DNA of 64,000 nt, from contig JALRAP010000004.1 of assembly GCA_023262505.1 (NCBI GenBank), positions 1 through 64,000 of the forward strand, read 5' to 3'. Made by a program: the position numbers and the translations under genes. Position 1 is the stretch's first letter. Every line of letters starts with the position of its first letter. This document shows, in pieces, positions 19,196 to 41,090 of the stretch. Below the pieces are notes generated by a model. That model saw nothing but the letters and a program-made list of their open reading frames with translations, had not been told where the DNA came from and searched no databases. Source of the stretch: Bacteroidia bacterium (lineage in GTDB: Bacteria > Bacteroidota > Bacteroidia > AKYH767-A > OLB10).

Positions 19196-20164
19196 ATGGA
19201 CAGACGAAGATTCATAAAAGGCTCTGCAATCATTGGAGCCACCGTTGCCGTACCCGAGATTCTGAAATCGGCTTCAGGAATGGAAAACTCGAAAAACGCA
19301 CGTCGGGTGTACCGGTTACTCAATGCCAACAAATCGATGGTGGGCACGCTGCCAGTTCTAAGGGCATTCGCAGGCGACCATAACGATTATGTTTCGCCAT
19401 TTGTGTTCTTCGACGAGTTCGGTCCTGTAAAAGTGAATCCTAACGACAAACCCTTGAAGGTTGAAGCTCATCCGCATGCCGGCATCGCCCCAACCACCTA
19501 TTTCCTGGAAGGCAGTGGCCACCACCGCGATAGCTTGAATTATGATTTCCAGATTTCGAAAGGCGATTTCATGTTGTTCACCGCCGGTAAGGGTGCTATA
19601 CACATGGAGGAGACGGGGGAATCGTTATACAAAGACGGAGGCATATACCATGGTTTCCAGATCTGGCTGAATCTTCCAGCCAAATTCAAATACCTAGACC
19701 CTTCAACCCGACTTTTCAATCCCGGCCAGATGGCCAAGGTGGAGCGCGAGGATTTCACTGCCAATGTGGTGATGGGCGAACTTTTCGGCTCTAAATCTTC
19801 TGTTGACCCCATGTTCCCCGTTTTTTATTTCCATATCAAGATGAAAGCCGGTTGTAAATTGGAAATTCCTGTTGACGCCACACACAATGCATTTACCTAT
19901 GTCATCAACGGAAGTGTTGAAACGGAAGGCCGTGTTAAGGCGGATGCCAACCAGGTCATCCTTTTTGAACGCGACAGCGACCTGATTCGATTGTTCAGCG
20001 CTGAAGATGCGGAGATATTGCTATGTGGTGGACAGCCGCACAATGAACCTGTTTTCGCGTATGGTCCTTTTGTAATGAATAACGAAGAGCAGATCCGCAG
20101 ATGCTTTGCCGATTACCAAGCGGGAAGGATGGGAGATCCGTATAGGGTCAATGGGAATAATTGA
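19196..20164 (+). CDS. Pirin family protein with N-terminal twin-arginine-like leader
   Basis: ORF 322 aa; DRRRFIKGSAIIGATVAVPEILKSAS; DHNDYVSPFVFFDEFGPVKVNPNDKPLKVEAHPHAGIAPTTYFLEGSGHHRDS. Confidence 0.92.
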   Translation: MDRRRFIKGSAIIGATVAVPEILKSASGMENSKNARRVYRLLNANKSMVGTLPVLRAFAGDHNDYVSPFVFFDEFGPVKVNPNDKPLKVEAHPHAGIAPTTYFLEGSGHHRDSLNYDFQISKGDFMLFTAGKGAIHMEETGESLYKDGGIYHGFQIWLNLPAKFKYLDPSTRLFNPGQMAKVEREDFTANVVMGELFGSKSSVDPMFPVFYFHIKMKAGCKLEIPVDATHNAFTYVINGSVETEGRVKADANQVILFERDSDLIRLFSAEDAEILLCGGQPHNEPVFAYGPFVMNNEEQIRRCFADYQAGRMGDPYRVNGNN

Positions 20165-20335
20165 CAAATTACAATTGACGATTGACGATTGACGACGTAC
20201 GATTGACGATTGACGATTGACGATTGACGACGTACGATTGACGACGTACGATTGACGACGTACGATTGACGATTGACGACTTGCCATGAGCTTGTCACTT
20301 GTCACTTGTCACTTGTCACTTGTCACTTAATCCCT
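20161..20335. repeat. Heptad repeat element: 15 tandem ATTGACG/ACGTACG heptamers, hinge, then (TTGTCAC)5
   Basis: 20174-20278 parses exactly as 15 heptamers (11 ATTGACG, 4 ACGTACG); then acttgccatgagc and five ttgtcac units. Confidence 0.92.
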
Positions 20336-32362: not shown

Positions 32363-33365
32363 GGTTTTCTGGATTTTGATTTTAGCATTGCCGTTGTTGG
32401 CATCTTGCGAAAAAGAAGAAGAGCCTATTATCCTTCCTGCTCCTGGTAATTTGCAGACCATGGCCGCCAGCATGGGTGTAAATTACGACAACCAGGTGTA
32501 TGTTGATTTCAAAACAGGAACGCAGAAGTCGGTACCTTACCGCAGCTACGATTTGGCATTCGAAGCAAGCGGCGGCGGGTTTCGCATTTACCTCAATACA
32601 GGAAAGTTCATGTTCGTGGCCCTTACTGGCGATACCAATATGGTAGCGGCTGATTCTACTGGTAAAGTATGGCGTACTGAAACGGATCAGTTGTATGATG
32701 ACTCAACCGCTTTCGGCGATTACCGAGATGCTTCAGGTGTTAGCAAGGGTGAAACCTATATTGTTGACCGTGGCCGGACCGAACACTTCGGGTCGGCACG
32801 ATGGAGAAAGTTCAAAGTTGTAGAGGTAACTTCGAATCAATACATCATCCGTTTCTCCAATTACAACAACACCGGCGTTACAGAATTCACCATACCCAAA
32901 GACCCCGAATACTCGCTCATGTATTTTTCATTTGATAACGGGGGGACAATGGTTGATGTGGCACCGAAGAAAGCCGATTGGGATGTGGTATTCACCAAAT
33001 ATACTTTCACCTATTACTCCGAGCCGGTAAACTCGCCATTCCGCTACTATCTGGTTACGGGAGCGTTATTGAACAAATGGTCGGGTTGTGTGAATGAGCA
33101 ATACCGCAAAGACTCCACACAATTATATGTTCCGTTTGAAACATTTGATGCTTCGAAATTGTCTGATGTTAGCTTCAACACGCTTGCAGCCAAGATTGGT
33201 TTCAGTTGGAAGGATTATGATTTCACTTTGGGTTACGTCATCATCCCCGACCGATTCTACCTCGTGCGTGACACGGAAGGATATGTTTACAAAATCAGGT
33301 TCTACGACTTTTATGATGACCTAGGAAATAAAGGGACTGCGAAGTTTGAGTATAAGAGGTTGTAA
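32355..33365 (+). CDS. HmuY family heme-binding-like lipoprotein
   Basis: MGRVFWILILALPLLASCEKEEE lipobox; YRSYDLAFEASGGGFRIYLNTGKFMFVALTGDT and WDVVFTKYTFTYY typical of HmuY-like proteins. Confidence 0.85.
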   Translation: MGRVFWILILALPLLASCEKEEEPIILPAPGNLQTMAASMGVNYDNQVYVDFKTGTQKSVPYRSYDLAFEASGGGFRIYLNTGKFMFVALTGDTNMVAADSTGKVWRTETDQLYDDSTAFGDYRDASGVSKGETYIVDRGRTEHFGSARWRKFKVVEVTSNQYIIRFSNYNNTGVTEFTIPKDPEYSLMYFSFDNGGTMVDVAPKKADWDVVFTKYTFTYYSEPVNSPFRYYLVTGALLNKWSGCVNEQYRKDSTQLYVPFETFDASKLSDVSFNTLAAKIGFSWKDYDFTLGYVIIPDRFYLVRDTEGYVYKIRFYDFYDDLGNKGTAKFEYKRL

Positions 33366-33405
33366 AGTGATAAGTGATAAGTGACAAGTGATAAGTGACA
33401 ATTTA
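33366..33405. repeat. Heptad array (GTGAYAA)5 immediately after the HmuY stop codon
   Basis: gtgataa gtgataa gtgacaa gtgataa gtgacaa at 33367-33401, one nt after TAA (33363-33365). Confidence 0.9.
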
Positions 33406-38701: not shown

Positions 38702-38727
38702 GGGACTGTTTCGCTGGCTTACACCTT

Positions 38728-38762
38728 TCGACAGATAGCTATCGGACCTAAAGCTATCTGAC
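38728..38762. repeat. Inverted repeat CAGATAGCT...AGCTATCTG
   Basis: Perfect 9-bp arms 38732-38740 / 38752-38760; contains the TAGCTATCGG module seen in other intergenic elements of the window. Confidence 0.75.
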
Positions 38763-38844
38763 AAGCGTTCAGTAAAACCTTTGACCTGCTCAGGGAAAAT
38801 AAGCGTAGGACTGGTGAGAGCTGTCCCATCTTTTTTGATACACA

Positions 38845-39460
38845 AATGAAATAATTTAAACGTTTAAGTTCAATCGAAAATTTGCTACTGGACTTTTCAA
38901 AAATTATTTTAGCAGCGGGCCGGGGAACGAAGTTCCCCTTTTTTACCCAATTACACTTTGATAAATTAAACATTTAAGTTCGATCGGAAATTTGTGGCTG
39001 CGATGCTGGAAAATTAAGCTTGCAACGGGGCGGGAACGTTAGTCCCCCGCTATTCACACAATTAAACTTGATTAAATTAAACGTTTAAGATCATTTGAAA
39101 ATTAACAATTAGAAGTTTTGAAAATTAGATTCGCCGCGGGGCGGGGACAGTTGTCCCCCACATTTTTTCATTCAATTTCCAACTTAATCTAAACGTTTAA
39201 TTTCAACTGGTAATTTGGGGCTTTATTTTTTGAGATTTATTTTCGCTTCGGAGCGGAGACAGTGTCCACCGTATATTTTCAAAACTGAATACCATTAACT
39301 GTATATGTTCACATGAAGAATTGCAACCGGACCTTTCAAAAGTTATTTCAGCTATGGGGAGGCCCTTCATCCGATAACTATCGGACCAACCCAGCACAAG
39401 TGAACGAAGTTCCCCGGGTTTAACAGTTAAGCATTAACAAAATTGCAGTAAACGTTTAAT
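38845..39460. repeat. Non-coding tandem array of ~111-bp units with TTAAACGTTTAA palindrome and GC-rich hairpin
   Basis: Palindromes at 38856, 38966, 39077, 39189 (spacing 110, 111, 112), degenerate copy near 39298, further copy at 39449; hairpins begin at 38922, 39032, 39143, 39255, each exactly 66 nt after its palindrome start. Confidence 0.88.
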
Positions 39461-39505: not shown

Positions 39506-39513
39506 TACTTTTG
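39506..39513 (+). promoter_or_regulatory. Bacteroidota -7 promoter motif (TACTTTTG)
   Basis: TAnnTTTG consensus 22 nt upstream of the exonuclease start; no clear -33 at canonical spacing. Confidence 0.4.
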
Positions 39514-40934: not shown

Positions 40935-41090
40935 TTGATTGACGATTGACAATTGACTATTTACAATTGACGATTTACAATTGACTATTTACAATTAACG
41001 ACTTGCCCTGAGCTTGTTACTTTTCACCCTTCGACAGGCTCAGGGCGGCGCTTATTACTTTTAACTTGTCACTTTCAACTTGTAACTTAT
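40935..41090. repeat. Heptad repeat element filling the KtrA-CGS intergenic gap, with CCTGAGC...GCTCAGG core
   Basis: 40937-41006 parses as ten heptamers (gattgac gattgac aattgac tatttac aattgac gatttac aattgac tatttac aattaac gacttgc); core cctgagcttgttacttttcacccttcgacaggctcaggg; 41052-41086 five heptamers (ttattac ttttaac ttgtcac tttcaac ttgtaac). Confidence 0.9.

Follow-up and report, generated by a model that had tools for sequence, protein, structure and literature searches.

The locus and its array

The window, by which we mean the whole 64,000-nucleotide stretch of DNA analyzed, carries a tandem array of four clean units and a decayed fifth, spaced 110–112 bp apart, between a hybrid kinase gene and a PolB-like 3'-5' exonuclease gene. 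Palindromes had been predicted at 38856, 38966, 39077, and 39189 (spacings 110, 111, and 112), each followed by a hairpin exactly 66 nt after its start; all were confirmed, with the hairpins at 38922, 39032, 39143, and 39255. No credible open reading frame was found in the array, as originally stated, and the decayed copy noted near 39298 is unit 5. The further palindrome proposed at 39449 is a real site but not a unit, standing alone before the exonuclease gene. Overlooked in the original prediction were a −33 and a −7 box between palindrome and hairpin. The features are as follows.

38846–39288, + strand: array of four clean promoter–hairpin units (period 110–112 bp), defined by sequence comparison and a unit model
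38856–38867, no strand: unit 1 upstream palindrome TTAAACGTTTAA, a putative operator, its center 43.5 nt from the −7 box
38881–38885, + strand: unit 1 −33 element TTTGC
38905–38912, + strand: unit 1 −7 box TATTTTAG
38917–38944, + strand: unit 1 predicted transcript, GGGCC, then hairpin GGGGAAC-GAA-GTTCCCC (38922–38938) and T-run, terminator-like
38966–38977, no strand: unit 2 palindrome TTAAACATTTAA
39015–39022, + strand: unit 2 −7 box TAAGCTTG, with −33 TTTGT at 38991
39027–39048, + strand: unit 2 predicted start, with the hairpin beginning at 39032
39077–39088, no strand: unit 3 palindrome TTAAACGTTTAA
39126–39133, + strand: unit 3 −7 box TAGATTCG, with a degenerate −33, TTAAC
39138–39168, + strand: unit 3 predicted start and hairpin GGGGAC-AGTT-GTCCCC (39143–39158), then T-run
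39189–39200, no strand: unit 4 palindrome CTAAACGTTTAA
39238–39245, + strand: unit 4 −7 box TATTTTCG, with −33 TTTGG at 39214
39250–39271, + strand: unit 4 predicted start and degenerate hairpin
39293–39438, + strand: unit 5, decayed (model match 39293–39372), its hairpin broken up by a small inserted palindrome (CCGATAACTATCGG context)
39449–39458, no strand: lone TAAACGTTTA site upstream of the PolB-like 3'-5' exonuclease gene (39536), with a perfect TACTTTTG box (39506–39513) at a distance of 52.5 nt

The 87-nt copies in the window are 64–74% identical to unit 1, and TRF did not detect the array. A DNA search of the same genome found arrays on contigs C105 (E 2e-44) and C112 (E 1e-40), which the unit model matched with E-values down to 1e-18, those copies being part of its training set. 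The 2.44 Mb of the genome contain 20 copies of TTAAACGTTTAA, against about 0.29 expected and 0 in the reversed control. Given this excess and the E-values of the C105 and C112 matches, the array lies beyond chance. Whole-unit RNA folding energy on the + strand was ordinary (z −1.2 to 0.5).

Other repeats lie nearby. The stretch between the kinase gene and the array (38719–38830) contains inverted repeats that are imperfect and include ATAGCTATCGG-type palindromes. Microsatellites of heptamers such as ATTGACG and CTTGTCA occupy several intergenic regions of the window (20160–20328, 33365–33398, and 40938–41088) and are found in relatives too.

Unit anatomy and the predicted start

More than 80 units from four lineages, anchored on TAnnTTT(A/G), align nearly gap-free in one layout. 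From 5' to 3' this comprises AAACG and palindrome motifs, a −33 element (TTG or CCGA), 19–20 nt, the −7 box TAnnTTTR, 4 nt, GGGGCGGGG, a stem-loop and often a T-run. The AAACG motifs recur every 10 bp, the palindrome included. The distance from the −7 box to the first GGG is exactly 4 nt in 10/10 units of this genome, 19/22 of g6 variant 1, 39/46 of G016 and 5/5 of L145. Nearly all relatives' units carry TAnnTTT(A/G) as −7 box, those of this genome mostly TAnnTTCG or TAnnTTAG; the −33 position (−36 to −32) holds TTG in the units of this genome and in g6 variant 2, and CCGA in G016, g6 variant 1, and L145.

Bacteroidota sigma-A promoters have a −7 box TAnnTTTG at −12 to −5 and a −33 TTTG or TTG about 19–21 nt upstream, and by its sequence the unit −7 box would qualify as one of this class. 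In Flavobacterium psychrophilum the sigma-A −7 boxes occupy −12 to −5 (PMC9723704), which places the predicted +1 of the unit on the first G of GGGGCGGGG. With its start there, the unit looks like a promoter joined to a tiny hairpin RNA.

Two ideas in the original prediction are altered by this layout. The period of about 110 bp, close to an integer number of helical turns, is not the key regularity, the period in G016 being about 97 bp. Helical phasing appears instead within the unit and in the distances from palindrome to −7 box (about 32–33, 43.5, and 52.5 nt), a series that may reflect a protein bound along a single helical face. The choice earlier offered between RNA structure and protein binding was a false one, since the unit has both a promoter-associated palindrome in common with real genes and a hairpin at the predicted start.

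The hairpin

The predicted transcripts of 28–33 nt each fold into a single hairpin, with energies of −9.8 to −18.8 kcal/mol. In window units 1 and 3 the GC hairpin is followed by a T-run and resembles a terminator; a terminator hairpin so near a transcription start is unusual. T-runs follow the hairpin in 8/10 units of this genome, 24/44 of G016, and 4/4 of g6 variant 2, and in 0/3 of L145. As they are missing from about half of the G016 units and from L145, termination would not be general.

Stem variation had been attributed to selection on structure. Covariation is indeed present, with two inner pairs of the G016 hairpin covarying (pair 5 from A-T to C-G, pair 6 from C-G to T-A), but it is modest: 28 of 5000 arm shuffles of the G016 hairpin reach the observed pairing, a count uncorrected for relatedness. 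The broader claim, a structured element combining a conserved palindrome with a hairpin, is supported; the prediction had staked itself on similar arrays in relatives, and these were found. The unit matched no described family in Rfam.

Several units (L095, L137, L146, L120) carry much the same 24-nt palindrome, TCCCGAGGTTTTCTCGGGATTCGG, between two G-runs, and the decayed units of this genome have other palindromes at the same place.

Distribution

This genome holds about 20 copies of the unit, in tandem, in pairs and solo. Copies outside the window lie on C105 (three clean, two decayed), C112 (three plus one), C167, C183, and C103, with solo copies on C132 and C142. Among relatives, one genome (G016) has about 55 units and eleven others have 2–20. 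By model search, genus g2 ranges from the long G016 arrays through 11 units in G001 and 2 in G019 to 0 in G011; all eight g6 genomes tested were positive, with 8–20 units each, and g8 has 2. The unit is restricted in distribution: in the model search it was present in 4 of the 11 genera of the family, and 18 genomes representing other families within the order gave no match. A pattern scan of named genomes found another tandem array in L145, a MAG labeled Sphingobacteriales, and no match in viral contigs.

A shared motif upstream of DNA-uptake genes

Eight TTAAACGTTTAA palindromes in this genome lie outside units, seven of them between divergent genes, and among the genes that they precede are a second, short ssb, comM (TIGR00368), and comEC (PF03772). 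A −7 box stands exactly 43.5 nt from the palindrome, the distance found in the array units, at comM (TAATTTTG) and at an LTD-domain gene (TATCTTTG); two such matches would arise by chance in 16 trials with a probability of about 1e-4. At the short ssb this spacing also holds if one mismatch in the −7 box is allowed. Other isolated palindromes in the genome have looser −7 boxes at 42.5 and 44.5 nt and, in one case, a strict box at 33.5 nt; comEC of this genome has no −7 box at 43.5 nt.

In relatives, where upstream motifs were judged by eye rather than with a scored matrix, the short ssb paralog bears the motif in 11/11 upstream regions from 10 genomes. The housekeeping ssb lacks it in 8/9 regions, the ninth (G016) holding an ambiguous TTAAGCGTTTAA near the start codon. 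The motif precedes comM in G013, G022, G023, and G025 (TTAAACGTTTGTTGTCGGATA or one mismatch) and in G016 and G019, in weaker form in G005, G018, and G001, and precedes comEC in G016, G019, G005, and G024. At comM and comEC of g2 and g6 species it is often the same variant as in the species' own units. TTAAACGTTTGTTGTCGGATA, allowing up to 3 mismatches, gave 25 matches in g6 and 0 in the reversed control. In genera that have no units, comM showed no sign of the motif, and G011, which has no units, lacks comEC and a full-length comM.

A cis-site common to ssb, comM, and comEC promoters is the pattern a competence regulon would present, as read from these upstream regions. We rejected dprA as a member, the motif being missing from all 19 of its upstream regions, where a few start codons are uncertain; "competence" may for that reason be a misnomer. 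A broader regulon is suggested by neighbors of other kinds (photolyase, S1/P1-nuclease-like, subtilisin-like, and GH18).

Two arrangements accompany these genes. The short ssb (113–120 aa), with its own motif-bearing promoter, is present in addition to the housekeeping ssb in most genomes searched (L331–L350), and in G025:C80 (L115:2187–3042) three tandem units lie immediately upstream of comEC.

Proposed explanation

We consider the array most likely to be a set of tandem promoters that belong to a competence-like regulon, depend on an activator, and produce hairpin RNAs (probability about 0.55). The sequence gives good support to the unit layout with its fixed spacings and to the motif in common with ssDNA-handling genes. 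Each unit would be a complete small transcription unit, likely transcribed under one shared activator. The activator would bind an upstream site made up of the AAACGTTT palindrome and the 10-bp-phased AAACG motifs; the −33 element and sigma-A −7 box would then direct initiation to the leading G of GGGGCGGGG, and the strong hairpin right after it, often with a T-run, would end or stabilize a predicted RNA of about 28–35 nt. The same site would serve as the common cis-motif of a regulon for DNA uptake and ssDNA handling that includes the second short ssb, comM, and comEC. Induction of that regulon would activate all the tandem units at once, giving a pool of tiny hairpin RNAs in a dose set by array length. 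With the same switch before the DNA-uptake genes, the units probably make their RNAs during the handling of incoming DNA. A more tentative proposal is that the regulon is a previously undescribed one and has such an RNA, some 30 nt long with a hairpin close to the 5' end and encoded by a tandemly amplified multi-copy gene, as an effector whose dose is tuned by array length.

Alternative explanations

A mobile or selfish intergenic repeat of REP, ERIC, or Correia-like type could have captured a regulated promoter and spread both solo and in tandem, its hairpin being a recombination or structural feature of its own and any RNA having no role; we regard this as a serious rival, though a less likely one. 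The units are dispersed and intergenic, lie in all orientations to neighboring genes (which also led us to reject a fixed gene context, such as the terminator or leader of a given gene), and vary between species from 0 to 55 per genome. Orthologous sites differ as well: L120 has three units and L119 one, and a unit-containing segment of about 590 bp at L114 and L117 is missing from L130. Copy-number change without fixed orientation keeps this reading alive. We considered a precise insertion, or one leaving a target duplication, and set it aside, the exact ends not being settable because the filled and empty pairs differ by about 590 bp that includes other repeats. Against mobility, no terminal inverted repeats or target duplications were seen, and no Y1 REP transposase (RAYT, PF01797) was matched in this genome (92.7% complete). 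Moreover, among the TTAAACGTTTGTTGTCGGATA match regions, five g6 species have an orthologous hairpin unit divergent from a TIGR01777–photolyase operon, in which everything from the operator through the −33 and −7 boxes and the hairpin to the T-run is conserved while sequence past the T-run diverges. This pattern speaks for a working transcription unit rather than a neutral repeat.

Integron attC sites were rejected by eye, their core-site layout being a misfit. Elsewhere, a segment of about 217 bp is 82–95% identical across loci and species (L117:1868–2084, L122:1814–2030, L137:6500–6714, L130:3088–3324) and holds a possible 30-aa ORF (MASVYSVFDEGKIALNKFRSSEPVRKSLNL) downstream of units.

The photolyase locus bears also on the identity of the regulon. 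With the motif divergent from that operon in the five g6 species, and a fatty-acid desaturase adjoining one isolated site in this genome, the regulon might respond to light or DNA damage rather than serve competence, the units being its tiny RNAs; this seems improbable, as comM, comEC, and the short ssb recur more consistently from lineage to lineage. An operator decoy array, whose tandem sites titrate the activator and set the regulon threshold with incidental RNA output, would suit a conserved, arrayed motif identical to that at target promoters, yet would not need the −7 box, fixed 4-nt discriminator, and hairpin that are all conserved, and is very improbable.

Comparison with known systems

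Searches of the literature found no existing description of the unit and, among the papers covered, none joining Bacteroidetes, comEC, and a competence regulon. The closest functional parallel to the proposed hairpin-RNA promoters, drawn by analogy, is the set of Cia-dependent csRNAs of Streptococcus, sibling sRNAs under one common regulator, some in tandem, that are linked to competence control (PMC4211561). The units similarly form several homologous small-RNA units, some tandem, with one common regulator, both regulator and expression being putative here; they differ in reaching about 55 copies, in a much shorter predicted RNA, and in belonging to a different phylum with no known sequence relation. 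The closest regulon parallel is the Sxy-dependent CRP-S competence regulon of Pasteurellaceae, in which a common site is found at the ssb, comM, and comEC/rec-2 promoters and dprA is included (PMC5809987). One site is likewise common to ssb, comM, and comEC here, although the motif is different, dprA is excluded, and CRP-S has no hairpin units. We claim membership in neither system. Like REP/BIME, ERIC, and other intergenic repeats, the units are dispersed, vary in copy number, and contain a palindrome or hairpin; they differ in that their arrays are direct and run head to tail, with fixed distances between promoter boxes, and no RAYT was found in this genome.

The motif derived from the array is a candidate regulon site, with the short ssb, comM, and comEC as clear candidate members and the housekeeping ssb as a built-in control. 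If transcribed, the units would be unusually amplified small-RNA genes, with array length as a simple, testable control of dose, and both motif and units belong to an uncultured family of Bacteroidota.
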